A stretch of 64,000 nucleotides of DNA. Source: Kappaphycus alvarezii (Eukaryota; Rhodophyta; Florideophyceae; Gigartinales; Solieriaceae). This document shows, in pieces, positions 9,976 through 60,971 of the stretch. A model generated the notes under the pieces. The model was not told the DNA's origin. It made no database searches and worked only from the letters and a program-made list of their open reading frames with translations. Numbering within the stretch: the stretch's first letter is position 1; the number at the start of each line of letters is the position of its first letter. The stretch spans positions 1,302,001-1,366,000 of the forward strand of contig NADL03000771.1 in the NCBI GenBank assembly GCA_002205965.3, in the 5' to 3' direction. Made by a program: the position numbers and the translations under genes.

Positions 9976-12900
9976 AGAGACTGGATATTTTGCCCAGAAG
10001 GTCAAAAAAAGTTCCCTGTTCTATGAACCAAAACATCTTTCTCATTGAAGTGCTCGGATTACTCTGAATTAAACCACTTCCTGGATAAAACGTGTGATGT
10101 TTCTAGGGCGAATTTTAGCGATGAGTACAGTGGGCATAATGTTGTTATTTTGAGGTCTTCGTGGTGAATGAAGGGTTTGGGGGTGCTCTTTGCAATCAGT
10201 CAGCACTGTATGTAAGCATTCATTACAGCTCTGAGTGATTCGATTCAGTTGCATTGGTGGGAATTATTAACAGAATTCAGCTGGAATATCTGTGGAGCTT
10301 CCCTAGGGAACAAACCCCGATGAAGCAGTCAATGGACCATCGGAGTCTATTTATATTAGTCTACAGTATAACAAAGAAAAACAAGAATTATGCACTAATT
10401 CTCACTTGCACATTTAACAACAAATAATGGCTTTATCGATATCAATTCCAATAGTTCTGTCATCACGCGGTACAAATTTTCTTCTTTTCCTGGGTTTTTT
10501 TTATCGATTTAATGGCACACAAAGCACATTATAAAATTGTCCAATATATCTCAGAGTGTAGCCACGAAACGAATAAAGCCATACCAAACCTTCCACTGAA
10601 TTAATGAAATTCAGCCGATTTGGTTTGTACCAGCAACCAATGCTTTCAACTTGCTCCTTTCATAGGTTGCTATATAATCTCCAGTTACTGATCCAACCGA
10701 AGTCCAACCGTCTGAAGCCTCACTGACATGCCAAAATTTTCAAGCTAAACCAACCCGTGAGAAGAGTGATACATAAATTCGGCAGCTGCCTGTAACTTTT
10801 TAAGGAGGTGACAATAGTTTCCAAGTGATTGAAATGAGGTTTCAGTCTCTAGCAATTATTGCGTCTCATCCTTATGCAAACCAAGAAATGAAATTATAGC
10901 GGCTACCGTGAAGGTTTAGTTTCCTATTTTTGCTCCGAATTTAGAAGAGATGATGTTTATGGGAGACTTGCTCTCTAATAAGCAGCCTCATTCACACCAG
11001 CTTAAGTTTCGGAGCAAAACCTTCTAGATGCTCCTGTAGTTTCGCTGTTACTATACCTTTTTTAGATGTCTAACGAAAGAGGGTTTACCCCTCTCTTTCC
11101 CTTTCTCTTTCCTTTTTGGTCTACATACAGCAATTAAAATTCCTATCATCTCGTCACCAGAAATATTTTCAATGTCCTCCCAGAATATTTCGCCTTGTAC
11201 GTATGACCCCAAATATCTTCACCTGGGACCAAGAGTTCTACCAACGGCTCTTACAACAAAATTTTCCGATATGAACGTGGTTTCTGCTCAAGTGAAACTT
11301 CAAAATCAGTTCTCGTCTATTTCATTATTCACCAAGCCTAGTAACTTATGGTAAGAGGAATTAATAATATACCATCTAGTGTCTTCTTCTGGTCTCCAAT
11401 GCAATATAACCTTCTACATCCATCATTACCAGACTTCACCCCCTAAGAATTGTCACTCGTGCCTCCGTCAACCCAATAATACTGCTATTGAGGGCCTTAA
11501 GCTCCGTGAATTTGACCATATAACTTCTTTATTACCTCCTTAGCCAAGCAAAGGAGAAGATTATCTATTCAATCCCCTAAGTATTTTTGGAAGATGAGGC
11601 GAGGGCGAATGGGATTGTGTATGGATTGGGTAGGAAGGGAAAGTTAGCGAATATTTAGAGAAAGGTATGGCCCCGAAGTTGGGTTATGATGGGGTTGAGG
11701 CGTAATTTAAGGTTAAAAAGGGAGCGAAATTGTTAAAGGAGGGATGTTAAAAAATATCGAGCGCGAGAGGCTACACCACGAGATTGATGAAGCGTCGTAT
11801 AGATCTGAGCAGGTTATCTCAATGATGAGGCATCTGACTGAAACTAACATTCTTTTATACATTATCATAAATTATGCAGGATTCTCTTTTATATGCACTA
11901 AACTGAAATTCTTGTAAGTCATCATCATTCTAAGTATCTTTCATATGTAGTGATGACTGATTGCACATATAATTTCCTCCCCTCAGCTATAAGAAATGCA
12001 TCAGAATCCTCTTTTTACCTCCCTCTATATCAATAAAATTGGAGATTATAATCGCTTTTTCGACGGACAGGTGAACACACATTAGACGATCTTACCTAAA
12101 AAGACCGGAACTAACTTCACTAAAAATCATGGAATTAGTGAATCACTTTCTATCATATCCCCATGTCAATTGATACGATGGATCCTTTTGGTGCTTTCTG
12201 GCTCCTCTATCGATTAAAGATACAAAAACCTTATGAATATGTGTGTCATTAGTGGATAGAGGTTTAGATGTTTAGGGGTTTAAACCCCCTAATAAATGCC
12301 CTAATCCTCGCAACGTAAAACCGATAATCGATCCCTTCGTACTGCAACTTCATCCCGCGTCCAAGCTTAGGTCGAACTTGATTGTAATGACGCTTAGGAG
12401 GTCGTGAAAGACCGTGAAAGGAGGAAGAGGAATAAAAGTTGAGGATTTCTCTTTTGGGTCGGCATCTGCGAAATCAGTTGTATTGGTTCAGGCCAGCGGG
12501 AGATTCTCGGTATAGGCGGAAGACGCAAAGGGGCGGTACTAAGACTGATGGAAATTAGGAGAACCTCACGTTGCACACCATGCGACATTACCTTCACCCA
12601 GAAAGTCTACCTGCAGATACATTAAAGCAGTTAAAAAAAAGCACTATAAAGGGATTTACTTCTTCGCCAAAAACAAAAAGAATTGGAATCCTTTTTCATT
12701 GAGTTTTTGAAGAAATCTTCACTTCCTACCCAAATTACGGTTTGTTTGTATTTCTGTCCGCGCTGTGATTGGAGAGGGTGAGGTCGGGGGCTGAGCACCT
12801 TTAAATTTGCCCTCGCAGTCCCTCCATTCACCTTAGCCACGCCAATCCTAGGTATTTTCATGCGGAGCCGCGTTTGTTGGTTGCGACCTGCGTTTCATAT

Positions 12901-13060
12901 TTGCCTCTTGACACCATTCGCCGTTCCCGTCCCGCTGGTGCCGTTTGCCGTTGCTGTAGTTGACCTCTTGCTGTTTTCGTCTGCATTTTCGCTCACTGCT
13001 ATTGTTAGCCCTGTGAGTGGTGCTGTTGTGCCACTTTCCCCTTGCTCAATCGATAAGGCT
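9976..13060. other. AT-rich stretch without recognisable genes
   Basis: No frame longer than about 100 codons and no known motif on either strand. One TACAGTA word lies at 10362. A 16-base near-palindrome around AGGGGTTTAAACCCC lies near 12271-12288. The frames at 12.4-12.9 kb are short and unrecognised. Confidence 0.5.
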
Positions 13061-13068
13061 TCCACTCT

Positions 13069-13660
13069 GTGGCTATTGAAATGTCCCTGCCGCCTCAAAA
13101 AGGTCGTTTACCTCGGTTCGAGGAGAAGCGAAGGAAATCTCGCGAAGCTATGACTACCAGAAGAGCAGCACTGAACCCTGAACAACGAGAAGCTGAGAGA
13201 ACTCACGACAGGAGTGTAAGATGCAGGGGAGAGCTGCCAAATCTCAGCAAGCAGTTGAAAGAGAGACCAAGGGCTTCAGTAACAGAGGAGAGCTGCGAAA
13301 CCTCAGGAATATGGTTAAAAAGGAAGAGAAAGAGAAAAAGCTGGATAGCGTCACAGTATGGCGGCTCAAAGTGAACGGGAACGAGTTTGACAGTACGAGG
13401 AAAGATGTAGACAAAGAAGAGAAAGGCGAAATCAGAAACTACGCAAGAAACTGCTCGAAGGCTAGAGACCGAACGAGTTCGAGCTCTACACAGTCGCAAT
13501 GCAGCAGATAAATCGCAGACTATCTTGAGAAAGGCTCAAGTCCGAGAGGGAGCTCAGATATGGCGAAGAATGTTCACGGTTGACAAATCTCAGTATATGG
13601 ATGTCGAAGATATGGACATGCAGAGATCGAGAGCTAAAGCGCTTCAATTTTCGTAACAAC
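13069..13660 (+). pseudogene. Unrecognised charged coding remnant
   Basis: Three overlapping plus-strand frames (13069-13374, 13221-13511 and a third to about 13655) are rich in R, E, K and Q, for example RRAALNPEQREAERTHDR, then a basic stretch, then RNAADKSQTILRKAQVREGA. The repeated R-x-A-x-L-x-P-E-Q-R-E-A-E-R style is seen in disordered N-terminal parts of several transposon-borne proteins in algae and oomycetes. I do not recognise a specific family. The frame changes suggest a broken gene. Confidence 0.3.
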
Positions 13661-13759
13661 CATACAGGAACGGTGCTACAGCACCTCTAAAATTTGAAAA
13701 CTGTTGAGAGGGTAGTAAAGTATCATTAACACCTTTACCAGAGCCTCCTTTACTTCTCC

Positions 13760-14915
13760 GCGAGCTCTTGGCAGGTACTGAAATAGAAAAAAAGCGGGCA
13801 AGAACTTTATGGCAAAAGCGTTCAAGTCGAATGCGGATCTCATTCATGTTGAGACTAAGCCCATTCCTGTCAAGTCCCCTAACCCCATGACTGTCGCGGA
13901 GCGCTTCCATGCTCACATACGTTGAGCACATCAGATCATCAGAAGGGAAGCCCCCGACATGGATACAAAGTCTGCCCTTCAGTCTGCGGTAAAGGACGTA
14001 AACGATTCCATCGGTCCCAATGGTCTTGTGCCGACTCTTCTAGTTTATGACGCTCTCCCTCGCATTGGGGTTCCTAACGAAGGATTCACTAAGGAGCGTC
14101 CGATCCAAGCACTTGAGAAGCTCCTTGTCAAGAAAAAGATTGTGCTTACTCCAAATGCTTGGGTTAACCGCCCGCTTCAGGTTCCGTCATTGGCTCTTCA
14201 GTAACATCGCTCGAAAGTGGAGAATGCTGAGTGTCGTTCGAATCAGTTCCTAATTACACCATTCTCGCAAAGTAAGTCAGGATACATCCTGATTTTTTGG
14301 GTATCTTTTATTCCGATATGTTTGTCATTGCGAATTTTAGTTGTTGTTATACTTCCTTGATTTGTTCTACTGTATGATATCATACTTGTTCAGTGTAGCT
14401 TGAATTCTGAACTTTGAATATGTCGGGCTAATATCGTGGACGGCATCGAGAGTTTGAACTAGTATAGTTGCTCGGCACCGTTGCAAGAAATGACCTGGTG
14501 GTGCAGGCTAAGTCCAAGATCAGGGCAGGTGTGGCGGACACAACTGGAAAAGTGGTTCAGCTTGGTAGTGTTCCTCTACTTAAGCAGTCATGAACTCCGT
14601 CCAGGTTTTCGAAAGCAGACAGACAGAATAAAGCTAACCAACCCACAGCCATCTGAACAACATCGTCCCGGAGAGCATCAGCAATTCCCAGGAACTACCA
14701 CGTCGCAGAGGCGTCGAGCCCCCTACGGTGTTACGACATATGTTCACGTGGAGCGCCCGCTCTATGGACTCCCTGAGGCTGGAATCCACTGGTTTCAAAC
14801 ATAAACCATCACAAGTGTCCTCTTGCCATGAAACCTTCCACACATGATATGTGTTTCCTCTACACACCGGGGTTTCTCGCAACCGAACTCCAGGCGCGCC
14901 ATGACATGAGTAACT
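13760..14915 (+). mobile_element. Copia-like LTR retrotransposon fossil (partial)
   Basis: Plus-strand pieces of integrase C-terminal half (SIGPNGLVPTLLVYDALPR near 14010-14070, preceded by PMTVAERFHAHIR) are followed by an RT piece (ERPLYGLPEAGIHWFQT near 14750, then KPSTHDMCFLYTPGF). Integrase before RT is the Ty1/copia order. No LTRs were found. It is broken, with several breaks, and old. A TACTGTA word lies inside it (14368). Confidence 0.65.
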
Positions 14916-15075
14916 TCACTGCTGACCGCCGAGGGAAGCATCCTATGTCTGAATCCCGGAAGCTTAAGACACGTGTCTCGGCGTTTGTTCTACAGTACAC
15001 CGCAGTCATGATTAATCACCGAAAACAGAGAACATACCCCACCACCTGACGTCCATACGGGGCTCTTGCCTGATC
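14916..15075 (+). pseudogene. 3' fragment of RLE-type LINE (first of two in a row)
   Basis: KTRVSAFVLQYTAVMINHRK matches RTMVSAFVQRYTAVMINQRK of the next fragment and, more loosely, the end of LINE copy B. The flanking DNA (R-R-G-K-H-P before it, G-P-Y-G-P-L-like after it) is also shared with 15466-15640, so the unit is duplicated and diverged. Confidence 0.6.
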
Positions 15076-15118
15076 CCCCACTAGAAATCATGAATTAGGT
15101 GTCTTTTTCTCTTGCATA

Positions 15119-15156
15119 TACAGTATACTGTAAACTTGCACATACAGTATACTGTA
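15119..15156. repeat. Tandem TACAGTATACTGTA palindromes
   Basis: The 14-base palindrome TACAGTATACTGTA occurs at 15119-15132 and again at 15143-15156, each followed by AAA. It belongs to the TACWGTA tracts discussed in the findings. Confidence 0.9.
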
Positions 15157-15179
15157 AATTGTATTACAGTGATAAAAAG

Positions 15180-15640: not shown

Positions 15641-15664
15641 TAAAATGTTACCATTCCCCTAATA

Positions 15665-20096: not shown

Positions 20097-23879
<3,783 letters not shown>

Positions 23880-25559: not shown

Positions 25560-26520
25560 GGCTTGCAATCTGGACCACTCGGCCCCCAAATGGGACCTGA
25601 TACTTTCGCAGGTGAAAGGCACCTATTAGGCCAAGTGTAGACTTTATTTATCTCTAACTTGGATCTCCCTAACTTGCCTGACCCTAACTTCACTCACCCT
25701 GCCGTCATAGATAACAATAACCTATCTATCTAGCATTCATACCTACCTGGCCACTAGGGCCCCAGATTAAGCAACCACCCCGGTGTTGGCTCTGAACTTG
25801 ACTCCTAACTTCCGCCTTTGCAGAAACCTTGCCAACGGCAACTTTAGTTATAGCCTCGTTTATCCGCCGGAGCCCCCCTCTTCATTCCCCCTTCTATATC
25901 CAATATTACATTACCCCTTTTTTTGTTTGCTTGTGATATTTATTCAAACTTGGCGCCCCGGACTGGCGACTATATACAAATAGGAACTTCAAGGTTGTCG
26001 TTGGTGACAAGATCCTTATCTCCAAAAGAGATATTCGGCACATATGACCCAATAATACATCTTCTTTGTACAGTATTACACCCCTGGTGTCTACGGTTCT
26101 TTGGAATCGACCCATACCACGTTTCTAGCATTCCTCGGACCACGGTCTGGCCTTACAACCCGGAGGACAAGTATAACGTCCAGCCGTCCAAGAAATTACC
26201 CCCGCTCTTCCAACTCCATTTTTCCTCGCCGTCGCCGAGCTGTGCTACTGCGTTGCAGGGTGCTTAAAAAGAAAGAGGTATAGCAAACACCCTGCTGGTC
26301 TTGGTGTGTGTGTTTTGTATTTCTCATTGTCTGACTGTGTTCCGTTCCTAGACGAGGAGAAATACGCACCGCACATCGGACTACACAAATCTGGTCTCCT
26401 GACCTAGAACGTATTGGATCAACTCCGAAGTCGTAGAAGATTCTCAATATTTTCGCCTTTAGTAACTCTACTTCCAAGTGAGAGTTTCTTTCTTTCGTCC
26501 TTGAGGATTGAAGATGCCCT
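25560..26520 (+). repeat. LTR-like region of gypsy element 1
   Basis: Shares ordered blocks with 32755-33680: CCAAGTGT followed by an A/T-rich stretch and CTAACTT; then TGGCCTTACAACCCGGAG (26150) against CGGTCTTACAACCCGGAG (33430); then CTACTGYRTTGCAGG, GCTTAAAAAGAAAGAGGTAT and a G-T-rich tract. The exact ends were not resolved. Confidence 0.6.
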
Positions 26521-32754: not shown

Positions 32755-33680
32755 CACTTGGGGTTACCCCACGCGGGCCACGAAGTACACCCCTAAGGGG
32801 TCCGATATATTAGGAGGGCCCTGCCGTCTTATTAGTCCAAGTGTCAAGGTATTTATTCACTAACGTAAGCCTAACTCTCATCCTGCAGGGGCCTGACACT
32901 GACTTTGACAAATTTAACTTGTAGTTTATGATAGTATAGTGTTAGTATAACTAGTATTTAAGCTCACTACTTGAGCCATTGGATCCCACTAAAGAAAGTA
33001 AACCCCGATCCTGGCTCGAACTTGTTCCCAACTTTCGTTTCGTCGATTAACCCTCCTCCTCAGCGGCTTTGGCCATTCCATGACCTAACTAACCGGGGGT
33101 CCCTTTCTTTTCCTTTTTGTCTTCTTGTCTTAACCACGTCTATATCTACCCGTTCTACGCGGTAGGACTATTTTTATATAGACCCCGGTAACCAGCGTCT
33201 ATATACAAGTTGGTTACGTTGCCATAGTGACATCGGGTCACTGTTCACTCCTAAGGAGAACCAAGTCAGCGCCGTTAGACCTTCCCTGTGACGCTTTGTT
33301 GCTCAGAACAGCCCGTCACGACCACTTCCGTCTCGAGGACAAGATATTACCGGACTCGAGACACTCTTTTGCCCTAAGCAGAAGAAATTTCCGTCCTCAG
33401 GACAACCACCGTTCCTGAGGAACACGGTTCGGTCTTACAACCCGGAGAGCCGCTACTCGGCTCAGCCGCCTTACGGAATACCCCAGGCCTACCACTCCAA
33501 GAAGTCTCCCTCACCGGCTCCTTCCTGGGCTACTGTAATGCAGGTCGCTTAAAGAGAAAGAGGGTATCCGAACTCCCTGTGAGTCTTTGTGTGCGTCTCT
33601 TCGTGTTTCGCTGCCTAAAGCATTTCTGTCAAACGGCTCCACAACATATCGATCGCCCATTTCACTACAGACACGAGAGA
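32755..33680 (+). repeat. Second gypsy LTR-like region
   Basis: Homologous to 25560-26520 but clearly diverged. Because Gag-leader-like sequence follows it, it may be the 5' LTR of a second element as well as, or instead of, the 3' LTR of the first. Confidence 0.6.
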
Positions 33681-34620: not shown

Positions 34621-37600
34621 TTCCGCCATTACGTCCCAAGAAACTTTCCAATCTTCCCACCATGTTGGAACTGGAACGTAGTGTACCGTTTCATGAGTGT
34701 TTAATTCTACTCTTTCTATACAGTAGATATCCGGTTGATACTTACATCCATGTCAGGTCTATCTAGGCCGCATAACCTATAGATATTTACTACAGTATAT
34801 ATTTATGGATACTCAAGAAAGATGTTTGCCCTAGTAGACAAAACTACTTGCGCATGCTAGGACTAGTCGACGGTGTCGAAACTGTGTATAAGTAGTGCGA
34901 ATACCGTACTTCATTGCGTAAAGGGAACCATCAATTCTTCGATCTTCAACCCCGATCCAGCTAGCAAAAACATATCTGTTTTTCAGAGTCGCCCGCAAGC
35001 GCAATTGCCTTTATTTACAATGGAATTCGCGACAAATTCCTTGTCTTATTTCCAGTCCTCATCTCTCTTTCAAGATAAGCCATTCTGCTCACTCCATTTT
35101 ATATGCAAACGGGCTGTCAATTTGAATATCGCAGACTTTGCATGTCCCGAGCTCCAATTTTTCCTCTCAAAAGGCTTTTCTGTTCAATTTCTGATCGATT
35201 TACCGGAAAAGGGCTAAAATTCTCTAAAGTCTTGTACTTGACTTCCGTACCTTGATTTTGCTTGATAGACGTCCTCATACTATATCTGGTGCCCTGTGCT
35301 GGTGTAAATGCCTGTCACTTTGTTGATCGGTAGATTCATGCTGCTACTATGTTTAGCGGATTCTCGCTCTAGTTTTCATAGATTAGCGTCTACGTGATTG
35401 AGGAGCAACCGAAGGAGTACAGCCTCAATTGATTCTAGTTCATGTCCCAATATCTTGAGTACTTCTCTTAGTTCTCTTCTCTCTATTACTAGCATCAAAT
35501 GTCCAGGCGTTTGTTTCTCTGTTTCTTTTCGGTCAGAAGCTGCTCATTTTTCCGTATTGCGCTCAAATATCCAATTTACATGTAAACCGCAAATATTCTT
35601 TTGACTGAGTCTGTAATTGGTAAAGTCTACACAATGGATCCCTTTGCTTTGGAGAGAAATCACTCAGGATGACATTTTCAATTTCGCAAACTGTTGAAAG
35701 CAGCTGTAACTTGTGCATACGAAGTGCAATTTGCCCCTGTCACCTCGGACAGGAGCACTTTTCATTCTCGTCTGGTCGGTCCACCTATACTATCTGACAT
35801 AAAAATTGAATGTCCGGTCGGTTGCCAAATTTTACAGTTTGTCATTGACGATCGCAATGTGTCACGCGAGATTTGTAACAGTCCGAAATTGGTCGAGCTA
35901 TTTCATTCAAAGCACAACAATTTGCACCGATGAAGTCGACATCAGCATCTGTCAACATCTGGATGGTCCCCGTCGCTGACATCAGCGCATTGTTGCATTC
36001 AGCGTTGTACGCCGTTATATGAGCTTCATATGCTGGAGTGTGGTCGTGTGGATACAGGGAGCATTGAGCAGCCAGCTTTGTGGTTTGATGGTAGCGATAG
36101 TTCTATTGCCATTCTCGCTTCAGACCATTCTCGTTTCTGCTGCAAACCTAAATTGTAAATGTGGTTATCTGATATTGGATCAGTTTTGTATTGTTCCCCA
36201 GGAACAGAAGAGAATATGTGATATTTATTGATTGAGGGCCTGAGAACGAAAGTAACGAAAGTTCTCACAAAACTAGGAAGCGTTTTAGCAATTACGGTAG
36301 TTTAGAAGAATCGATATCTACGCTCCGGTACAAATTTGCTGGATACCAACCCACATATCTACCACGGTAAATTAACCCCCATTTACACAGTTTGGAAGAA
36401 CAGAGTGTGTGCTCAATTCGTGACTTAGGTATGCAATTTCTAACTCAAGAGTTCATATTGACTTTAATGTTGACTTTTAAGTAAAAGTCAACCGCACAAT
36501 GTGTTAGTTTACGAGGATACGCTTGACTACATGCTTGGGAGGGACATTCCTCGGAGATAACTTTATGAGCTAGAGACTTTCAAATATTGTACAGTCTGAA
36601 GACCATTCAGTAAATATGATTTAGTATTGGGCGCGGGCATCTGCTATTTTCGATGGAAAGCAAAACAAAAAGATAGAAAAGAGAAAAGTTTGGGTAATTT
36701 ACCATTTGCAAAGGATTTCATTTCTTACAGTAACGCCAGCCGCCCCCATAGTTATACTATGCTAAATGGAAATGAGTTTGGTGTGAACATTTGATCCACT
36801 CGTAACGATGAGCCGACTAAGGCTGGTGGCCAAGGCCAATCGGCAGCAGTGGTCGGCAAGTGCTAGAAATTAGAGTGGCACGCTCTAATAATACAGGATT
36901 AGAGAATAGCGTTTTCCATTTTCTCTAAGATTACTGTAATGTTTATAGCGCTACACTGTACCGTGAGCCAAAACGTATGAAACTCGCTTCGGTTTAATGA
37001 CCGAGAGTAGTTTTATTGATGTCAACATCAAATGAGAAATGAGTACATGTATGAGCTACCCTTATTGGACATTATGTTTGTTTAGCTTTACTGAACCGTT
37101 TGTAATACAGCAACTTTTCTGCTATTATGCGCATTTCATGGTACAGTACCACTAACCTGCAGTACAGTACTGTACAGTATAGCAGCACAGCACATTAGAA
37201 TGTGAACAGGGGGGATTGACGAGGCTGCGTTTAGAGTAGTGAAATACAACTGAGGCAAATTGCAAAAAAGCAAAATAGCGCAGCTGTTGGCGGTGCTATG
37301 GCGATCCTACAGTTGCTCCCCACGTCGTGGAACACCCGTTTAGTTCTTTGCAGTACATTTACAGTACCCAGTACATGTACTGGCAGATCATTGCACGAGG
37401 CGGTATCCAATAGGATCTGAGAACACCAATAAATTATCATACTTTAGTCAACAGTTCGGAACTGCAGAGTGCCAGTTTCTTTTGGTTTTTTGAAGCACCG
37501 ATGCAAAATCCCTCGATAGAGACTTAACGACATTTCTGTAACCGTGCAATACTGTATTGCCCCCTTTTCGCTGCCTTAACGAGCAACATCGCACAGGTAG

Positions 37601-37743
37601 TGATAGGTGCAGCTCTACAAGTCTCTGTTAGCCAAACAGGATATGATCGCACGCCGGCTCTTCACCGCCTTATATTCCAGCAGTCAACTGCCATCTGCTC
37701 AACTCCCCCACCATGCACCACACCCCTTCCCATTTCGTTCACC
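34621..37743. other. No gene recognised; several TACWGTA tracts
   Basis: Short frames at 34873-35217, 35398-35604, 35694-35933 and 36019-36231 carry no motif. TACAGTA/TACTGTA words lie at 34719, 34791, 36729, 36935, 37142, 37163-37179 (three chained), near 37361 and at 37549. A 16-base perfect palindrome CCAGTACATGTACTGG lies at 37368-37383. The last few hundred bases should hold the promoter of the LtrA gene that follows. Confidence 0.5.
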
Positions 37744-39777
37744 ATGACTCAAACCAACGAAATATCCTGTCAATCTCAATCGCCTCCATCCTCTCACCGC
37801 CCTCCAGACAATGAACACGAGCATGCCCACCACATCCACGAATTCGGCGAGGTCCAGAAGCTCATTCACGTCAAGGAGCGCGAGTCCAGCGTCGAGGCCG
37901 AGCAGCGTCCTGTAGCCCCAGTCTCCAATAAGAGCCGTGCCGCCAGGCAAAACCGGTGGAAGCGCTTGCGTGGTAGACTGTTTCGTCGTCGCCATCTCAT
38001 GCAGTATTTTCGTAATGGAATTCTGTATCGAACCAATGGCTTGAGAAAGGTTACTACAGAGGAACTTTTCTTGGACTTGGTCATTGTCGCTGCTGTTGCC
38101 GCACTGGGTCATGAGTTGAGAGAGACGGAGATTTCCTGGCGCCCGATAGAGAAGTTTATTTTGTTGTTTCAGGCTGTGTATGCCAGTTGGCGGCATATTG
38201 TTTTGCTTTGGAATCTGTACGGAGTTCATCAAGACATACCAGAGAAAATGGGCATCTACGTCTCGTTTCTGGCATTGACGGGCGTGGCGTTGGGTGCGCA
38301 TGACGCTTTTATAGACAAGGGTAGACCCTATGTCGCCATTTCTGCCTTTATCGGCACTATCACCCCGTTAATTGGCCAGTTGACCTTCACTCTAAAGGAG
38401 CCACTTTTGAAGAATCCTCACCATCGCGTCAGTCAACTCATGGTCAGTACCATCACTAGTATGGTTGCCACTTTACCCTATTTCGCTGCCGCCTTTGTTG
38501 GGACGGAGAGCGCTACTAGAGCCTTGTATTGGACAGCCTTTGGAATGGAAGTTGGCTTCGTTTTTATTCCATATCAAGTGCACCGTTTCTTGCATCGCAA
38601 CACCTGCAATTACACTCGCGGCGCAATCAATATTGAGCTCTTTGTGGAAAAGTTTGAGGTGCTGACCATGATTGTCATGGGCGAGACTATGATCGGTTTG
38701 TTGTTTGAAGCAGGATGTGAGTTATTTTTCATATTCTCCAAAGATCCATGAATTGCCACAGGCCCGGGCATTAGAAGCAACGCAGAGCCTGCACGCATCC
38801 TTCCATTGCTTACTGACCTGAAACTAACCCACTGCCGCAATTTTTTTCCTCCTTCACCTCCCCAACACGAAATACACAGCTGTGTTATCTGTCGAGGAAT
38901 CTCGAATCGGATACATGTATCTCTCGGCAATGGCTGCAACAATCACTCTTTACTCTCTTCAGACCCTTTACGTGCAAGTTGACAATCGCATCCAAAAAGG
39001 CGGAACGCATGCCATCCGCCACAAGACGCTTACTGGATTTAGTTGGTCACTATTGCACATGCCGTACCACTTTTTCCTGGTAATGTTTGCCACCGGACTG
39101 TCGATCAGCCTGAGAGACGTTGCGGTGCCACCGATTCCCACTGAGACGGCACGACTCGTGTTGCGTGCCTCGAAACCAACAGCCGATGCTGTGCAGGGGG
39201 CTGCGCAGTTTACTCGAAATGCGCGTTGGTTATACTCGGTGGGGTGGGGGGGAGCGTGATTTTCTCGGCATTGATATCCGGGACGCATCAGGGAGGCCCT
39301 CGATCGGCGACCAAACGGTGGCGTCTTGCCGGAAGAATCGTTTTCGTCATGGGGCTCATGTTGGGTATGCCATTTACGGAGCTGCGGGCGGAATGGTTCC
39401 AGTTGGTGTTTATGGGAGTGTCGATGTTGATTTCAGCCGCGGAGTATGTGTTGGTGAATATGGACAGGATTGGATTTTTCAGATCCGAGGCGTCGGGGCA
39501 GTTGTCAAGTGGAGACTCAAGCTCAGACTATCCGGGATTTGTACAGAGATTTGACGACTCTGATTCGGACAGTATTGATTTAGACGTTGGGGATAAAGGG
39601 GGAGATTCCGGACCGAAGCATCCGGGTGAGGTAGATCTGGAAATTGGCAACGGGCAGAAAGGCTCGGACCTGGATTTGGTGGCATTGAAACAAAGGTTGT
39701 GTAAAGGACATCAAGTCAGGCTGGTACCTGTGAAGAAGGACAAGACTGATAAACACCTGGCCAAGGGGTGTGGATAA
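37744..39777 (+). CDS. LtrA-family membrane protein, gene 1 (two exons)
   Basis: Polytopic membrane protein of the 'low temperature requirement A' family, biochemical function unknown. The start is taken at ATG 37744 (ACC-ATG-A, MTQTNEISCQSQSPPSSHRP), giving a disordered acidic N-terminus with HEFGEVQKLIHV. It is followed by a basic patch (RLRGRLFRRRHLMQYF) and the family signature VTTEELFLDLVIVAAVAALG, then about ten hydrophobic segments including VEKFEVLTMIVMGETMIGLL. The intron is 38717-38879 (GTGAGT ... ACACAG), phase 1; exon 2 starts at 38880 (VLSVEESRIGYMYLSAM). After RWLYSVGWGG the frame meets TGA at about 39258. One more G in the seven-G run 39246-39252 would lead into SVIFSALISGTHQGGPRSAT, two more membrane segments and an S/D-rich acidic tail (DDSDSDSIDLD) ending at 39777. 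The paralogue at 51-53 kb confirms that this continuation is coding. Confidence 0.85.
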
Positions 39778-41040
39778 AAAGGTCGACAGCAAGGATAAAG
39801 AGTAGACTTGGGCATAATGGCGCTTTGAGGCACCTACAAACGGGGGATAAGTATGCACTGGGTCGTGGTCCACGTTATTGTATCCAGTAAGAAGTCGACC
39901 TTGGTTTCTCATGTAGGGAGAAACGCTCAGGAATACTGTATCGAGATGTGAACAGTGTTGTAGTGTTGTGCAACATATCTCCCATCTGATGCTTTGCAGT
40001 CTGGGGATTTTCAGACGAGATGCTTTTCTAGACCGGACTATGTGCATTCACACTCTGGGTTTGTGAGTGTCCTAGATAAAATCTCGACACTCAAGAGCAC
40101 ATCGTATCCTTTTTTTGAAATATACTGCACTTGGCAGCGAGTAAAATTGCGTATGATAAAGTGACGATAGCTACAGGCTATACAGAATCCTTGCGTTGCG
40201 TCCTATGTTGGAACCATAAGATCTCTGACTGCGCTGTACTGTTACAACTGCAACTTGAACTTGCAAAGTTTTGAGCGGGGCTTTGGTTCACCCAAGAGAA
40301 GATGACATTTATCTTCACTACTGGTTAGTCTCCTCACGTCTTTCTAGATAGAATGAAAAATCCTGCCATGCGCATGGACGACAAGGTACATCCAATTAGA
40401 TCTTGACCGTATAGTTAGGACGTGCGCAGTCCCCAGTAGATACTGAATGCATTAAATTTCATCTTCTTTGTTACACAGCGCCTTCCTCATAAACCCCCCG
40501 GTTCTCAGCCATCCGAGCTTCTACAGTAAACAAAACCCCTATCCCCCTGTTCTAGAATGTGTACCGACTGTACTCAATGAGTGCACATGTAGGTCAGGGG
40601 TACGTCACAGTATCATACTGTACTGTACTGTACTGTACTTTGCAGATCGCGGAGGGACACAAAATACTGTACAGTACACACCAGGTAAGCTATTGACACA
40701 AGGCCACTAACAGTCACTGAGCCGTTTATACGTAAACAAACCGTTTCCAGCGTGCATTTTGTTGGATTGTGGGTCCAGGTCAAGTACTGTACTTCACACA
40801 AGAAAGAAATTCGATGCATTCAGTATCTTCAGTACTGTACAGTACAGCAGTGGCAATAAATATACGACAGTTTGTGTATTCCGAACCACTGCGAAAAATA
40901 TTAAATTTTTACTTCTTTTTTTCTGTACAGGGAAACGGCTTTTAAAGGGCATTTTAAACCTGAAAACAAAGTTTAGAGAGCTTTATTATTTCTTGAGATA
41001 GAAGCATGTGAGTTAAAAATACCTGGCATTAAAGATAGCT
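39778..41040. other. Intergenic; dense TACWGTA tracts
   Basis: No gene recognised. TACTGTA at 39945; four chained units near 40617-40640 (TACTG repeated); chained TACTGTACAGTAC near 40665; TACTGTA near 40786; chained TACTGTACAGTACAG near 40833. Frames here are short and run through these repeats. Confidence 0.6.
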
Positions 41041-41041
41041 A

Positions 41042-42427
41042 CAGTCTCCGACAATATTGAGTTTCCAACTAAATGAGGTTCTTAATTGGACTTTTAGTGC
41101 TGAATCTTCTTCCCCTTTGCCTGTACAACACAAACACAGCGCTTCTGCATCGATTTTGTTAGCTTCATCAACAATGTTGGATCAATATTCTCCCATACTC
41201 TGAAAATGCATTCAGGAAGCGAACTCACATCTTCAACCTGGCGCTGGTTCGTGTAGACCTGCCTTAACAAGATCCCCCATAGATTCTCGATTGGATTGAG
41301 GTCAGGGGAGTACGCAGGCCACTATATTAGCGAAATTGAATTAGCCGAAAGCCAGTCTTTGGCTACCTTAGAACGATGACAAGGCTCACCATATTATATG
41401 AAAACCCACTGCACCGGAAGATTTTCAGAAAATGAGAGAAGATGATCTTTTAAACTCCTCACGTACTTCACTCCATCCTGTTTTCCGATTAAAATAACCA
41501 GTAGGAATATATATATTTTGCCCGTAAAGCAAGCCCAATCCATGATACTTTCCCTTTCATTTTGCCCCTTCGATAACCACTGCTTCTCTTTCCTCATGAC
41601 AAGCAATCTGTATGCTATGCCGTCTAGTCCATCTAAATTGAATTTTTTTATCAGACCAGACGACTTTTTCCCACTTAGACTCACTCTAAATCACCGTTTT
41701 CATCGCCCAGGATACTCGAGCTTGTTGCGTTGTTTCTTTTATCGCCAGCGTCCGAGAAATGCGCTTGTAGCGCAAATGAGGTTGCTGTTGAAGAAGCTTT
41801 TGCACGCAGCACGCCTTAACAGGCAACTAGAATGATTTCATTAAGGCAGAAGACTTCAATTCACCCTGAAATTTGATACGGATAACACGACTATCCATAG
41901 AATTAGTTCGTTTAGGTCGACGGCCGGGGCTTTTTTGACTCCGTATTGGTTTGGAGGCTAAATAAAGCGACTTACTACGCTTCTTGATTATTCAAGCTCT
42001 CTTTCGATGGCTAATATACTTCAAAACTCTGCGTAATAGGCGAAAATTAGGCCCGGAAAGGGGTTAAGGAGGGCTTCTGAGGCATTTTTTTGGGGATAGC
42101 TGAGAGAGCTTATTCGGATGTTTATCTATTAACGCCCCTTTAAGGGAGTTTTATGAGTTCATATACCAGTTTTTAGCTTCATAGGTCTGTTTTTTGGGCG
42201 CAACATGGCTGTTTCGGTCAAATTGTAGCTATATTTCTTGCTGGACTTTTTTGGCTCAGATGTTTATATCGCAGTAAAAAGTAAGTCATTTTAAACTTCG
42301 TTTTCTGCTCCGGGATTTTCTTTAAAAGTTTTGCTTCTGTATAGAAAAACAGTAATGTTTCTTTAATATTTTTGGGGGGGTTTCAAAATAGACCAACTTT
42401 CGTATATTTTTTGCCACCACTTTACTG
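41042..42427 (-). mobile_element. Tc1/mariner-like transposon, second lineage, decayed
   Basis: Minus-strand transposase, N-terminus near 42000: S-P-G-R-R-P-K-R-T, then YKRISRTLAIKETTQQARVS (HTH/linker side), then a middle frame 41684-41394 (KKFNLDGLDGIAYRLLVMRK, first catalytic D region), then GEPCHRSKVAKDWL, AWPAYSPDLNPIENLWGILL (third carboxylate, N-P-I-E-N) and a C-terminal tail with LTKSMQKRCVCVVQAKGK near 41120. In the Q-D-G-A-P-C-H box the D is replaced (Q-Y-G-E-P-C-H), so the catalytic triad is damaged. The proposed ends are TA|CAGT at 41040 and ACTG|TA at 42424-42429. The inner repeats match poorly, so the ends are tentative. If right, the right flank is a TACAGTATACTGTACAG tract. 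Confidence 0.7.
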
Positions 42428-42474
42428 TACAGTATACTGTACAGTTCTAAACACTGTGCTATTATTGACTCGTA

Positions 42475-50968: not shown

Positions 50969-53044
50969 TCAACCCAGCCGCCCCTCTTTCCAAGTCTCTT
51001 GCCCCACCTCCGCCGGCAGCTTCCTCCGGGAGGGAGTTCGAGTCCGTATCCGAGTCTGAGTCTGAGTCTGAATCCTTTTCAATCTCATCCGACCCACCAC
51101 CCGATTCATTCCCAAGGCTCTCCTTCTGTCCCCCCGCCGGAAGAACCCCACCCGCTCCATCTGCACCACCAGAAATTCGGCTGCCGAAACGGCAACTGAT
51201 ACCCCCGCGATTACCATTTGATACCACTCCGCTCTCAACCCCGAGAACGGCAGCCCGACCATCACCCCAATTGCAATCACACTCCGAATCAACACCCGCC
51301 ACACCTTTGTCACCGCCCTTGCGCCGCCCTTATGCAGTCCACTCAGCAATCCACTACATATAAGCGAACCCGCCCACCCTACCGCATACAGCCATCGCGC
51401 GTTCGTTGTAAACTGCGCTGTGCCTTTCGCCGCGGATAACCCACCCTCTGCACGCACTACACTTTCCGCAATGACGTCTGGTGGTAATGCGACGTCGCGT
51501 AGACTGATCGCAAGACCGGTCGCAAACATTATGAGGAAACAGTGATACGGCATGTGAATGAAGCTCCAAGCGTATCCGGCGAGTACGTTGTGTCGCACGG
51601 CGTGCCGACCGCCCTTGGCAATGGGGCTGTCTATCTGCACGTACAACGTTTGGATAGAGTATAGAGTCGCCGTGCTGAGCATCGCAGACAGGTACATGTG
51701 TCCTACTCGCACTCCTTCAAAAGTTATGGCGGCTGTTTCCGGGCAGTGTCGCAGGGCACACATAATAAAGTCAGAATCGCGGGTCGATTATGGTGAAAAG
51801 GGGTGCGGCAGAGTTGGGATTACTAGCTTACCGCCGGCCTCAAACAATAGCCCGATGAGAGTCTCACCCATAACAATCATGGTGAGCACCTCGAACTTTT
51901 CGACAAACAATTCAATATTAACTGCTATTCTCGTGTACCCTTCCACATTCCTGTGCAAATAACTGTAGATCTTATACGGCGCAAACAGCAACAAAGACTG
52001 CAGCGCAAACGCCACCCAATACAACGACCTGGTAGCGCGCTCCGTGCGCATAAACGCCGCGACCAAATACGGCACCACACAAAACAGCGTGATAGAATTC
52101 ATCAACACCAACTGATTCACCCGATTCGCCGGGTTTTTTAACAAGCGCTCATGAATCGACCACACCATCCCACTCACCTGCGGCACGGCCGTGGCCAAAA
52201 ATGCCGAAACTCCCACATAAGGGCGTGCAACGTCATCAAACGCATTATGGGCGCCCAGTGCAATCCCCGTGAGCGAAAGAACCGTCAAATAGACGCCTAT
52301 TTTCCCGGCAAAGTCGACCTGAACGCCCCATAAATTCCATAGAATTACAATGCCACGCCAACTAAAGTACACCGCGGAGAATAGCAAGACAAACTTCTCA
52401 AGCGCGGCCCAGGAGATGGCACTCTCCCGTAATTGATGGCCGATGGCAGCAACGGCAGCAACAATAATGAGGTCCAGGAAAAGTTCCTCCGTGGTCACCT
52501 TGCGTATACCACGCGTGCGATACAGAATGTCATCATAAAAGTACTGCATGAGATGGCGCTTCATAAAGAGACGGGAATACAACTTGAACCATTTGTGGTA
52601 GAGAGGGGGCGGGTGGGCGGGGGCGGTGGCAGAAGCGGGTTGGGTGTGAAAGGAATCATGGTCGGAGGCTAAGGGCTTGTGAGTGGGGAGGTGGACGATG
52701 CGGTCGACTTCGCCAAACTCGTCGATGTGGTGGGCGCGGGGGTCGACGGAGGGGATGCGACGGATTTCGTGGGGGAGAGGGGGGTGGTGCAGGGGAGGCG
52801 GGAGGGGGTGGGGGGGTGTTGGGTGGCGTGGACATGGCGGAGTGATGGTTTGTGAGTGGATGGCGGGGTGGGGGGTGAGGGGAGGATTATGGGGGGTGGG
52901 GGCGTGAGGTGTGGTGGAGGGTTGTGCTGGTAGGGTGGTGTTCCAATTTGAATGGTTCATAGTGTGTTTACCGTGGGAGGGTGGCAGCAGGTGCATCAGA
53001 GCGGAGTGGTGGACTTGGCTAGGAGTTTGGCAGGCGGACGACAT
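50969..53044 (-). CDS. LtrA-family membrane protein, gene 2 (two exons)
   Basis: Paralogue of the gene at 37.7-39.8 kb. Exon 1 is 53044-51832 and exon 2 is 51732-50969; the intron is 51831-51733 (99 bp, GTAAGC ... AACAG), phase 1 at the same codon (LLFEAG|A) as gene 1. The start is uncertain: ATG 53044 (MSSACQTPSQ) gives 658 residues; ATG 52960 (MNHSNWNTTL) gives 630 and looks as likely. The N-terminus is P/H-rich, then HHIDEFGEVDRIVHL, basic KLYSRLFMKRHLMQYF, signature VTTEELFLDLIIVAAVAAIG, about ten membrane segments, VEKFEVLTMIVMGETLIGLL and HMYLSAMLSTATLYSIQTLY. After GFFRRG the present frame reads basic (R-T-R-T-P-S-R-R-K). One extra G in the six-G run (51130-51135, as C) would give an acidic tail with DSDSDSDSDTDSN to about 50856, like gene 1. 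Confidence 0.88.
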
Positions 53045-53310
53045 GGGGCGGCCGACTAGCAGGGTGACATTGTCTGAACAAGTGTGAAGTTGAATAGCAA
53101 AAGGAATCAAATCACATTTTGAAGCGTAGGTTGCCTCGCGATCGGGCCGTATGACAACCACTACCGATGACAGATGACTAAATATCATGTGCGCAAGTAC
53201 TGTACAGTGTACAGAATCGTACTGTACTTGCAAGTGTACTGTACAGTACTGTACACTTGCAAGTACAGATGTCGCGGGTCTTTGCTAGTGTTCTGCATGA
53301 TACTCTTCTG
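53045..53310. promoter_or_regulatory. Upstream region of LtrA gene 2 with TACWGTA tracts
   Basis: The presumed promoter region of LtrA gene 2. It contains TACTGTACAG (53199), TACTGTA (53219) and the 47-nt inverted repeat at 53222-53268. No TATA-like element was assigned. Confidence 0.4.
53222..53268. repeat. 18-bp perfect inverted repeat around TGTACAGTACT
   Basis: CTGTACTTGCAAGTGTAC and its exact reverse complement flank an 11-base centre made of TACWGTA units. It lies between LtrA gene 2 and LINE copy C. Confidence 0.9.
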
Positions 53311-55049: not shown

Positions 55050-55487
55050 TGTAGTATCACAGCCCAAAAGGTATGACACGTGTAGCACGCAGCAAGGTTG
55101 CTGGTGGAAGTCTACTGTAAGCCCTACAAGCCGAGGTTACAAAGTCTGACACAACTACTGACCGTTGTGCTCGACGGGTTGGCTTCCCCTTATTGCGGCA
55201 AGAACAAGTGTTTACTTCTTCTGTCTGATGGCTGATGATTCTTGTCTTGGACTTGCTCCGCTACTCGGTACGCAAGCCCTTATATAGACTTTTTTGTAGC
55301 CCGTCTGCCCTGTAGTTTGGAAGTACAGTACAGTACAGTACAGTATAGAACTAGTCCACCATAAAAATTAAATCTAATGGCTACAGTAGCATTTGGTACT
55401 AGATTAATATCATAAAATATCTAAGCATTCCTGCTGAGCTGTCACAGGTGCTGCGCTGGCACATTCGCACACCCTTTCTGTATAACA
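55050..55487 (-). repeat. Copia LTR, left copy
   Basis: Nearly identical to 60332-60769. Contains a (TACAG)-type tract, TACAGTACAGTACAGTACAG ending TATAG, near 55325. Confidence 0.95.
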
Positions 55488-58400
55488 TTCCCGCCCTTTC
55501 AAAAAGCGAGGCTGTTGTCCCTTACTTCTTACGGATAATCCATTGCTCGATGAAGATTTTGTCAACTCCAGTCCGTAGAATATTTACCAGAGGCTTGCAA
55601 ACATTCGGCTTGCTTAGACCATCAGCAGGATTTGCAACACCAGCGATAAGTCCAACATTTGATATTTCGAACATGTTGTAGGCTTCGCGAGCAGCAGCAA
55701 TGTCTATCATTAAACGTTTCTCAGTTGTATGCGAAGCGCGGGTAATGACATCGAAAATTTGCTTCGAGGCTGTGAAAATTTTCAGAGGTATCTTACGGCG
55801 TAACATGCGTTCCAAATCGTGTTTCAATATGTAAGCGACATCAAATGCGGCGGAGAATGCGTACACTTCTCCAGCCATGATAGGCCGTACGACGCTTCGA
55901 GACTTACGGCTGCAATAGTTCAAAACATGGCAGCGGTCTTCGTAATCACAAAGCAAAATAATGAATCCTAACTGCGAAGTGAGATCTGTGTTTCTCGCAA
56001 ACGATGCATATGCGTAAGCACGAATATGAAGAGTGTTGAAATTGAGCGAAGGATATTTGAGACGGATGTCTTTGGTATCTTTCACATAGCTTATGGAAGT
56101 GTTAAGCTGGTCTGTAGCCTTCTTTCCGAAATTTTCAACGGTTACTTGTGCTGCACGATTGACTGCACAGCATATCTCTGACGAGAGTGCGATAGCCAAC
56201 TGAATGCGGCTCAGACGGAACGAAAGAGTTCAAAGGTAGAATCATTTGGTATTGTTCTGAGCTTGGCAAGATAGTCTGGTTGATGGGCGTAGAAAGTTCG
56301 CTGACCATCAATCGATTTTTCGGCTTCAATATGGATGCCGATGAACTCAAGATTGTCATACTCGAGCAGTTTTGACTCAAACGAACGAGCTGTGAGTTCA
56401 ATGAGCTTATCAAAATTTTCATTTCCAGCAAACAAATTATCATCGACATAGGCTCCAAGAAGTCCGTGGGTACCCTCGGTACCTTTTTTCATGTAAAGGG
56501 ATGGATCTCCGTCGATTGGTAGCATTCCTAGTTCGTTTTTGATGAAAAATTCGAGAGTAGCGCCCCAGTAGTCGCCAGAATCACATATACCATGAAGAGG
56601 CTTTTCAGCTTCAGTACTTGATCTCCCCGGATGTTAGAGAACTTTCGATCTGCCTCACGGATCTTAAGATATATATCACGACTTAGCTTTTCTTTCGCTT
56701 GGAGGTAAGCTTGAACGAAATCAATCATTGCGAGGCGGTAATTAAGAATAGCAGATACTGAAAGGATTATTTTTGTGGAGCTTTGGCGTAGCGTTAGGAA
56801 GCTATGCACTATAACTCTTTCATGTCATCTTTGTAGCCTTGTCCAACGAAACGTGCTTTGGCCTTCTGACGTCGGTACCAGGATTCTTTAGCGTAAGTTC
56901 AAATCTTCCACCGATAATGTTTGCCTTTGGGGAAGAGACGAAATATTGACGACTTCCCAGTCCTTGCGATCAGAAAGACCCTGAATCTCGTTGCGTTTGG
57001 CTATTTCAAATGCTGTGGAGTTAGATCTTTTGTCAGCAGTAGGAATTTTCTCCATGATATACGTTAGGCTTGAGCCTCGAAGACATCAGTTTTTCCCTCT
57101 GTTTTGACCCGAACTTCAGCCATTTTTTCTTGAACGGTTGCAAGAAATGTTTCGCCCGAGAATACTCGGTCAAAGACAGTATCTATTTCGTCACGCTCAT
57201 TATCAGACAATTTTGCCTGTCCTTTCTGGTGATCGGATCCGTTATATACTCACGGACTCTGTCAATCGAAACCCTTTTAAGTTCGTTATTGATACTGATC
57301 CAAAGATTTTTTCATCTCCTGCAACAACCTTGTATGGGCCTTCCCATGCTTTCAACTTTCGCATATAATAGTACTTGAGATCCATTATAATCTCGCGGTC
57401 TGATGCAATCGGGACGTTACGATTAAGAGAAGTGCGGATGCGAGCAGAAGCAACAGCCTTAGACATTTCAGAGCGAGCATTTTGTAATGCTTTCATTCCT
57501 CACGCTGCTCGGGAAGATCTGAGAATCCTAGCGGAAATTGTGGAACGATTCCAAACACGAGAAGAGTGGGAGACAATCCATCTGGCCCGGCGTTGTTGTT
57601 CATGGCATGAACAGAAAGAGAAAGACAGTCATCTTTCGAAATCTTTGGGTGCTCCATTCGTACCTTACGAAAATTCGTCGGAGTAAGTCATGGTACTTTT
57701 CACCGACGCCAATAGCATTATGGCTTTCGATACCTGAATCCAAGCGTGTTATCCCACTCCTTGCAGCAAGTGACGCCACCGGTCACTATCGAATGCGGTC
57801 CACGATCAGTGTGAATTTCTTTCGAGTATCCGACGTACTTTGTAACATTGGCGGACGTAAGCTGTCCATACGTTGTTTGCCGACTCTCATCGAGGAATAC
57901 TGCAGCACTGAACACGTATCCTTGCAAACATGTGTAGTACGGGCATGCTTTCCAAGTACATAAGATCCATAAGCACAGTTCGGTTAAAGACTACGTCTTC
58001 GCTTGGCAGTGCGACGCGGAAACGACCAGGTTGTTTCGAAATCCTTTGACAAACATCACAAGATTCAGTAACTTTTTCGAGTGCCTTAAGTGTCTCTGGT
58101 GTCGCTTGAGGATCCTTGGCCTCTTCATCATTTTGTATATTCTCAGCGGATGCGGGTGATAAAAGTGTCGGTGGATCCTTTTCAATTCGGGCTCTGTATA
58201 CATAACTTCGTAGTTCCATTCATAGTAGGCATGCCCAGCTTTCGACTGAGAGGTGCGCTCCAGACAGGATCTTTGCATCTGATACGATTGTCCACGGTGT
58301 CTACTAGAAGCTTGTACTTATCAAGTACGTCGAGTCCTAAAAGAAGAGGTATTTCAATATCAACAACATCCAGAACGATCTTCATGTGACTGTTGTCGCC

Positions 58401-60331
58401 ATATGGGATTCGAAACTTTGCTTTTCCGATGCTTTCCTTCCTGTTTTCTCCAAATTTGTAGACCTTTGCTGCTGACGGTATGAGAGCTAGAGGGATTCCC
58501 ATAAGGCGGTAGTATGCCTCAGCTTGACTCTTCCCTACTACGGAGCTCTGAGCTCCAGTATCCAAACAGGCTCCATTGAACCTTTCAATGCCTTTTGGGG
58601 CCGAAGGAGAAGTAAGGTTGATTGTAGCGTCAGCTACAGATTTTTCATCATTTGTGTCTCTGACGTAATTAACAAGTGCATCGAAGAGATCAAAGTCTGT
58701 TTTTTCTTCTTCAACTTCATCGTCAACATTTGCATCTGTTTCATCTGGTACTTCTTGACTCATTTCCTCTTTTGCTTCATTTATAGAGTCGAGCTGTTGA
58801 CATAATTCAAACAATACAACCTGAGCATTTTGGGTGTTTCCATTTCTCTTCGACATGTACTCCATTTTTCGACGAGCGGCTTTAGCAAGATCGATCTTAC
58901 GCGGACATGAACTTAGCATATGATCAGGGGAATCACAATTGAAGCATCCCATGACCGAAAGTGGTCCAGATGGATCCTTCCACGGCCGTAACTACGTGTA
59001 TCACCGACACCACGATGTTGGTTTGCATAGCGAGCAGGTCCTTGATAGAGTATCCCAGGGATCTTTTCGTCCTCATCTGAAGTAGTACGTAACCTAATTG
59101 CAACTTTATCTCTCATGTTTGCCAATTTGGCTTCCCTAGAGAGATGTAAGGCTGCTTCAAGTTCTCCATAGAGTTGTTGAAATGAGATTCCATGGGTAGC
59201 GACGCGACTTAACGGCTCCGTTGCCCATGCATAACCGACGGTAGCTTTACGAAGAAATTTAATCTTGTGTGCCTCACTCCTGTGCGAAACAGGAACTTGC
59301 GGTGAAAGCTTTGTTATAAGCTTGTACATTTTTTCAAGTGCTGCAAGCTCATCAAGGCCTTCAGAAGTATACTTAGATAACCTAAGTCCACCGAGATAGT
59401 TCTTCACTCGATTTTGACGAACCACGGAGTTGTATTCATTACCAATGAGGTTTATGGCCTCAGTAAACGAATTAACTTCGTTGTCAATTCGATCCAGGTA
59501 AAATCTTTTAGCATCACCACGTAGAAGGTTATGAAGGTATTGCTATTTCTGCGCAGTTCTGAGACCATAGTCACGAGCGACTTGTTGGTACTCGGCAACA
59601 TATTCCACCCATGACTCACCAAGGTCTCCGAGAACTTTTGGTCCTTGTCACGGAATCTAGAGCCGATGTAGTACGCCAATTTTTCCTGATGCGTGGGACA
59701 GATGTGGTAAGAGATTGTCCATCTTCGGTGGTTGATTGCTCCTGGCCTCTTCGGGTTGTACGACGACCTTATTTCATTATGTCCTTTGTTATTTCTTCTG
59801 CAGCTAACTTGTCTTCGTGTTCGGTATAGAGATTAGCGGCTAGCTGGCGGATAACACGACGGGAGCTATGCGGCGGCATATTTGCACCACGGTCATTCAA
59901 CCAGTCACGAAGTGCTTTATAAGCAATAGGCAGAGCTTTTATAGCAGGAGAGAACAATACAGCAGGTGGAAAAAGTTCGGCAACCTCATCGACTACTTGA
60001 GGTCCAGTCATAGACCGAGCGGAGACACGATTCTCGAGTATTCGAATTGCGTCGATGAATCCTAAAACCTCTTGAGAGACATTTTCCAGTGCTATCTCCG
60101 ACAGAAACAAGTCCGATATATCTGCAGTGCTTCCTTGATCAATGTTGATCACTGACCTAGAAATTAGGATAAGTTCTGACTTGTTTCCAACAGAAATTTA
60201 GTGTGTGAGAAATAATATTCTGGTTCACGGTTAACGAAGGGATTTTCAGGCTTTTGTTCAGTGGAGTAGCATGCAGTTGTAAGAACAAAGTGTGTAATAA
60301 AACTGAGGACACTGTGAGGATAATTCGCGAA

Positions 60332-60769
60332 TGTAGTATCACAGCCCAAAAGGTATGACACGTGTAGCACGCAGCAAGGTTGCTGGTGGAAGTCTACTGT
60401 AAGCCCTACAAGCCGAGGTTACAAAGTCTGACACAACTACTGACCGTTGTGCTCGACGGGTTGGCTTCCCCTTATTGCGGCAAGAACAAGTGTTTACTTC
60501 TTCTGTCTGATGGCTGATGATTCTTGTCTTGGACTTGCTCCGCTACTCGGTACGCAAGCCCTTATATAGACTTTTTTGTAGCCCGTCTGCCCTGTAGTTT
60601 GGAAGTACAGTACAGTACAGTACAGTATAGAACTAGTCCACCATAAAAATTAAATCTAATGGCTACAGTAGCATTTGGTACTAGATTAATATCATAAAAT
60701 ATCTAAGCATTCCTGCTGGGCTGTCACAGGTGCTGCGCTGGCACATTCGCACACCCTTTCTGTATAACA
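60332..60769 (-). repeat. Copia LTR, right copy
   Basis: Same 438 bases as the left copy; the one difference seen is GAGCTGTC (left) against GGGCTGTC (right) near the inner-right end. For the minus-strand element this is the 5' LTR. Confidence 0.95.
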
Positions 60770-60774
60770 GCTAT

Positions 60775-60969
60775 GGCCATCATATCGCGGGCCCCACTGC
60801 ACGTGACCGATGTGGTCCATCCAGGTAGCTCTTAACTGAATAGTCGGTCAGTCGGTGTACACTCAAGATAAGTAAAGAATAAAAGAAAAAAAAGGGTTTT
60901 TATACTTAATTTTGCCTGCTAAGAGCAATCGCAGACTAGGACCACTGTAAGTAGGGTAACCACTTACTG
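60775..60969. other. Flank between copia and Tc1 elements
   Basis: No gene. The last bases before the Tc1 element read TTACTG-TA, a TACTGTA-type site. Confidence 0.5.
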
Positions 60970-60971
60970 TA

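Follow-up and report, generated by a model that had tools for sequence, protein, structure and literature searches.

How did one stretch of the genome of the red alga Kappaphycus alvarezii come to hold dozens of copies of the 7-mer TACWGTA (TACAGTA or TACTGTA), some of them chained through shared TA dinucleotides? The stretch, here called the window, comprises 64,000 bases (positions 1,302,001 to 1,366,000 of contig NADL03000771.1, assembly GCA_002205965.3). An original prediction, made from the letters alone, had proposed that the words are excision footprints of Tc1-type transposons, stacked by repeated visits into ladders with a 5-bp step. We find that most of the non-coding TACWGTA words in the window are probably excision footprints of transposons of the Sleeping Beauty type (Tc1/mariner). 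This reading, drawn from the sequence alone, is favored because the word is in excess and exact, its flanks are plain, its distribution between compartments is biased, a modest halo of decayed derivatives accompanies it, and the window contains two resident elements similar to Sleeping Beauty, both of which lie in tracts of the word. (Each CWG between two TAs is termed a rung; a tract is a single word or a chain of words that share TAs, and a tract of two or more rungs is a ladder.)

The window contains 68 TACWGTA words (TACAGTA, 35; TACTGTA, 33), 66 of them within positions 10362–60971 and the remaining two at 6185 and 7971. Six are copies carried in the second long terminal repeat (LTR) of an LTR retrotransposon, and masking that repeat leaves 62 non-redundant words in 48 tracts, namely 40 single words, four two-rung, two three-rung and two four-rung ladders. 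Markov simulations (40 runs each) gave 4.3, 6.6 and 9.5 ± 3.2 expected words at orders 1, 2 and 3, with maxima of 8, 13 and 20, respectively. The count by eye in the original prediction (about 60 words where about ten were expected) agrees with these values, and the comparison with a Markov background for which it had called, run here within the window, returned an excess over all three orders. The near-equal numbers of the two forms are uninformative about repair because the forms are reverse complements of each other; only their order inside ladders is informative.

TACAGTA is the most frequent 7-mer of the LTR-masked window when the strands are merged. Among the TA-NNN-TA classes (strands merged, LTR copy included), CAG/CTG accounts for 68 occurrences and the runner-up class for 14, and when CWG is considered with all pairs of two-base flanks, TA..TA occurs 62 times, the second pair 30 times, and the mean over the 136 pairs is 14.8. 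The flanks of 35 isolated words resemble those of any TA (chi-square p of 0.04 at one of 12 positions and of 0.09–0.99 at the others). The words thus have the form expected of footprints, exact TA-CWG-TA with no further consensus. The blunt fill-in product TACAGCTGTA occurs nowhere in the window, and the counts of two-base scars are low (TACATA, 11; TATGTA, 6; without a computed expectation). The tracts are also clustered, with 16 gaps of less than 100 bp against 5.7 in simulations (maximum 13 in 2000).

The 39.5 kb of the window outside the compartments that we marked (2170 TAs) holds 60 of the 62 words, in keeping with the earlier statement that they are common in intergenic DNA. No word occurs in the interior of the LTR element, in either Tc1 element, in a stretch with RsmI and WD40 matches, or in two stretches with LtrA-like genes, which together contain 669 TAs. 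In the LTR-element interior there are no words in 261 TAs, as had been claimed for gypsy internal regions, although the label gypsy is that of the original prediction only; the first 10 kb, said to lack the word altogether, holds two in 368 TAs and is sparse rather than empty. Pfam searches covered 20 open reading frames (ORFs), nine stretches of the window and the transposase relic of one Tc1 element, a partial rather than a full annotation; in the ten ORFs that have a Pfam match at E up to 0.01, of which six exceed the family cut-off, no word lies 3' of the first Met. Two diverged LtrA-like genes stand in opposite orientation at 37528–39132 and 50969–53284, with a TACWGTA cluster 5' of each.

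Derivatives of the word that differ from it by one mutation, counted outside tracts, number 122, as compared with 85.7 expected at order 2 (p = 0.0001) and 91.8 at order 3 (p = 0.0015). Transitions account for 49 of them (28.7 expected at order 2 and 32.4 at order 3), and the excess is seen at all seven positions of the word. This modest excess fits neutral scars in decay.

Elements of the kind that would leave such scars reside in the window itself, together with the tracts that they adjoin:

60972–62497, + strand: element 1, Tc1-type, 1526 bp, with CAG...CTG ends, TA flanks and a broken transposase
60965–60971: TACTGTA, with its second TA serving as the target-site TA for element 1
40845–42422, − strand: element 2, Tc1-type, 1578 bp, with CAG at the left end and CTT instead of CTG at the right end
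40833–40844: two-rung ladder TACTGTACAGTA, adjoining the left end of element 2
42423–42441: ladder TACTGTACAGTATACTGTA, adjoining the right end of element 2

Element 1 is flanked by a duplicated TA target and bounded by inverted ends, CAG...CTG; its arms (29 nt including the flanking TGTA) are 90% complementary. Its transposase matches DDE_3 at 61583–62131 (1.8e-7, above the cut-off) and HTH_38 at 61283–61450 (1.8e-4, below its cut-off), and in the PDB it matches a single sequence at E up to 0.1, that of Sleeping Beauty SB100X (5cr4; 2.7e-26). The reading frame is broken, and a Glu is aligned to the residue of Sleeping Beauty that we take to be the second catalytic Asp. The inverted ends of element 2 span about 200 bp and are about 70% identical; its transposase relic, on the − strand and with two stops read as X, matches DDE_3 (5.2e-13) and SB100X (4.9e-23), the following PDB matches having values of 0.026 and 0.075. 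SB100X is the only significant PDB match for the transposases of both elements. Judged by their sequences, both residents are dead, element 1 being a relic and not a working element. The original prediction had named one CAG-ended element, which is confirmed at 60972–62497, and element 2 is an addition to it. The TAs of tracts make up only 110 of the 3205 TAs in the window, yet both residents occupy tract TAs, for which the chance is about 0.001 (calculated by hand and post hoc).

A 4009-bp candidate element at 10364–14372 was rejected, being without extended inverted ends. No relatives of the element 1 transposase were confirmed in viral contigs, phages or plasmids, and words taken from the ends of element 1 and from the LTR were not found in viral contigs. 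Adjoining element 2, inverted repeats of 23 nt (91%) surround 345 bp with several tracts (40438–40828), possibly the relic of a miniature inverted-repeat transposable element (MITE).

Further ladders, and the retrotransposon that carries two of them, are as follows:

22397–22408: two-rung mixed ladder TACAGTACTGTA
37163–37179: three-rung mixed ladder, CAG-CTG-CAG
40616–40637: four-rung pure CTG ladder
40665–40676: two-rung mixed ladder TACTGTACAGTA
53237–53253: three-rung mixed ladder, CTG-CAG-CTG, at the center of a 47-bp near-perfect palindrome (53222–53268)
55050–55487: left LTR of a young LTR retrotransposon, the right LTR of which is at 60332–60769
55324–55345: four-rung pure CAG ladder within the left LTR
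60606–60627: copy of that ladder within the right LTR, not an independent event

The two LTRs differ at one position in 438, carry the same six words, and are accompanied by a target duplication, GCTAT; aspartyl protease and zinc-knuckle matches in the element are both below cut-off. The 10-base flanks of the ladder at 53237–53253, CTTGCAAGTG and CACTTGCAAG, are perfectly complementary. A preference for palindromic targets was considered and set aside, the excess of self-complementarity in the flanks being slight and owed in part to one palindrome.

Read by their middle letters, the eight non-redundant ladders are AT, ATA, TTTT, TA, TA, TA, TAT and AAAA. CAG and CTG are therefore mixed in six of the eight, as had been predicted, and a single fixed unit, which the original prediction associated with slippage, is confined to the other two. 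Rungs nested in existing tracts number 14, as compared with a mean of 1.7 and a maximum of 8 when 62 events were placed at random in 5000 simulations. Together with the clustering of tracts, this excess suggests that elements prefer footprints or their neighborhood, or else that some rungs came from slippage. The order test that had been proposed earlier gave a divided answer: of 14 neighboring rung pairs, eight are unlike and six like (in a wider count of 30 CWG-TA-CWG cores, 19 and 11), the long ladders being pure and the short ones alternating. Comparison of the window with itself (E up to 1e-3) revealed no pair of copies with a 5-bp length difference at a tract.

Viral and microbial records were scanned for ladders in a search for related DNA, and the loci obtained, all with four or more rungs, serve as a control for slippage. 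Of these 44 loci (11 plus 33; L001–L044), 38 are pure and six are mixed, and a relationship to the window was established for none. Since the control loci are mostly pure, the two pure four-rung ladders of the window may be products of slippage; mixed ladders are harder to make in that way. Two of the control loci, L015 and L018, were at first read as Tc1-flanked ladders because CAGTGG or CAGTGC follows the ladder; for L015 the reading was dropped, its 3672 bases, inspected by eye and without a gene search, suggesting bacterial genes with no transposase noticed. L015, a contig of a bacterial metagenome-assembled genome, has two similar regions (748–769 and 1788–1814) with TACAG ladders that differ in rung number and in CAG/CTG make-up. 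L002, a viral contig, contains 15 TACWGTA words in mixed order at 13082–13301, some adjoining inverted repeats.

The sequence of events that we propose would begin with the insertion of a Sleeping Beauty-type element at a TA, which it would duplicate. On excision, the transposase would cut within the element, three bases from each end, so that CAG 3' overhangs with an A·A mismatch at their center remain; end joining would then turn the site into TA-CAG-TA or TA-CTG-TA, 5 bp longer than before. Later elements would favor footprints already present, or their immediate surroundings, as landing sites, and further excisions would add 5-bp rungs, resulting in mixed ladders. Slippage may have lengthened the two pure four-rung ladders, one of which was copied with the LTR retrotransposon. 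What we infer, in other words, is an origin of the words in excision, repeated visits to sites, and an active source element, past or present, in another part of the genome. For Sleeping Beauty, the passages cited give the footprint as TAC(A/T)GTA (PMC4378557, PMC3432063), describe cuts three bases inward from its ends, with 3-nt 3' overhangs that are sealed by end joining (PMC7827188) and, in a review, give the footprint as CAG (PMC8151067). The word, the ends of the elements and the transposase agree with one another. The earlier step from word to Sleeping Beauty-type excision is supported by the exact signature, the plain flanks, the absence from recognized coding sequence and the LTR interior, the modest halo and the two residents in tracts. 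The further claim, that ladders grew by repeated visits, is plausible and partly supported: the nested rungs and the mixed make-up of most ladders speak for it, and the purity of the four-rung ladders and the over-regularity of the short ones do not.

Several observations weigh against the footprint reading. The four-rung ladders are both pure, and the six shorter ones show perfect alternation, for which random order would give a chance of 1/256 (by hand, as (1/2)^4 x (1/4)^2, and post hoc); such regularity in the short ladders exceeds what would be expected of random mismatch repair. The rungs that flank the much-decayed element 2 are unmutated, from which it follows that they are younger than that decay or have been maintained; alternatively, they could be part of the ends of element 2 itself, because both flanks read alike inwards. 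The borders of the compartments were drawn after the positions of the words had been seen. The stop-to-stop frames of the LtrA-like genes hold five words and one word, respectively, all upstream of the first Met, and across all 41 mechanical ORFs of at least 150 aa there are 12 of the 62 words in 856 TAs as compared with 50 in 2352, a mild depletion. The clusters 5' of the two LtrA-like genes (eight and five words) would fit a regulatory motif as well. The halo is uneven, with a peak at one position (30 against 16–18), and is weaker against order 3. Finally, at least one word, at 33531, resembles a chance word. It is listed here with two other tracts that call for individual comment:

33531–33537: TACTGTA, probably an expected chance word and not a footprint, in gap-free alignment at the word with a diverged copy at 26137–26323
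15111–15158: 24-bp unit in tandem duplication, each copy with TACAGTATACTGTA; four words, two of which are probably copies
22065–22071: lone TACTGTA, followed by an apparent degenerate ladder, CTG-TG-CTG-TA-CAG

The clusters near genes bear on an alternative that we regard as unlikely, namely that TACWGTA is a host regulatory motif (a transcription factor site or an RNA-processing signal) in promoters and LTRs that selection keeps exact. Its presence in LTRs and 5' of both LtrA-like genes would suit such a motif, as would the fact that exact words exceed the surplus of one-mutants and the slightly raised self-complementarity of the flanks (mean 3.08 versus 2.52 of 10), to which one palindrome contributes part. 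However, there is no clear conservation beyond the two TAs, the one-mutant excess extends to all seven positions rather than only to those that a binding site might tolerate, and a regulatory motif predicts neither rungs that share a TA nor that both Tc1 elements should sit inside the word. It is quite improbable that the tracts are a pentanucleotide microsatellite, a TACAG/TACTG unit expanded by slippage with inversions. Although the two four-rung ladders and most of the control loci are pure, as that would require, 40 of the 48 tracts consist of one 7-mer, which is too short for slippage, and most ladders lack a single fixed unit.

The location of both residents within tracts would also follow if elements simply favored TACWGTA, a word abundant for some other reason; such a pre-existing target preference leaves a roughly six-fold excess without a source and isolated tracts without a clear context beyond TA, and we give it slightly less credence than the microsatellite. 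Least probable, in our view, is that the words are the ends of TA-bounded MITEs or of eliminated sequences of the ciliate type. The latter end in TAYAG..., and TACAG is a shared end of such elements; neither, however, requires a TA after CAG, and a search for paired ends (spacing of 60–6000 bp, 13 or more matches among 20 end bases) gave nine TA-CAG...CTG-TA pairs; the alignment was extended for three of these, and extended inverted ends were seen in the two Tc1 elements only.

Elsewhere in the window, the first 10 kb contains two reverse-transcriptase matches, RVT_1 at 164–1849 (− strand; 5.7e-15) and one at 4635–5201 (+ strand; 4.4e-5, below cut-off), which are separate from the LTR element at 55050–60769. 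It also contains, in GC-rich DNA, a long inverted repeat (3365–4095; about 250 bp at 96%; 99% for a 112-nt arm) from which a large hairpin could form.

If most of the words are footprints of Sleeping Beauty-type elements, then excisions can be read from the sequence, and the 64 kb would record some 45 to 55 events, as compared with two residents, both dead (an estimate by hand, as 62 less about ten chance words, the lower figure also omitting tandem copies and the rungs of pure ladders). Counting resident copies misses every jump that ended in departure; the scars would tally how often such genes have jumped. Transposons would, moreover, provide a way of making short tandem repeats, and many ready-made 5-bp polymorphisms would be at hand. 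More broadly, and with a little less than even confidence, we suggest that a natural genome may be saturated with such footprints, at about one per kb, because elements re-enter their own scars, that mixed CWG ladders may be short tandem repeats made by transposition and not by slippage, and that the ratio of intact to decayed scars may act as a transposition odometer that outlasts the elements. No report of such density or of such ladders in a natural genome was found among the matches listed in the open-licence literature.

The window carries about one word per kb, as compared with about one per 9 kb in the mouse. The mouse genome is reported, in the passage cited, to contain more than 300,000 TAC(A/T)GTA words (PMC4378557). 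Ladders of TACAG or TACTG in viral and microbial records share the 5-bp period with those of the window, and differ in that 38 of 44 consist of a single triplet and three of the six mixed ones deviate in the last rung only. The Triticeae beta-amylase gene resembles the window in the repeated natural gain and loss of elements at one place: in its intron 4, present Stowaway elements are enclosed in older TA...GTA footprints (PMC1925063), and the site is a natural precedent for re-entry. It differs in being a single locus followed across a phylogeny, with MITEs that have other ends and, in the parts of that report drawn on here, neither ladders nor density on a genome scale. Sleeping Beauty itself shares with the window the TAC(A/T)GTA word, the TA target, the CAG ends and a homologous transposase. 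In the passages cited above, its footprints are known from engineered mobilization in mouse tumors and human cells, whereas the window, a natural genome with about one word per kb, partly stacked, and with dead residents, would be a dense natural form of that known product.

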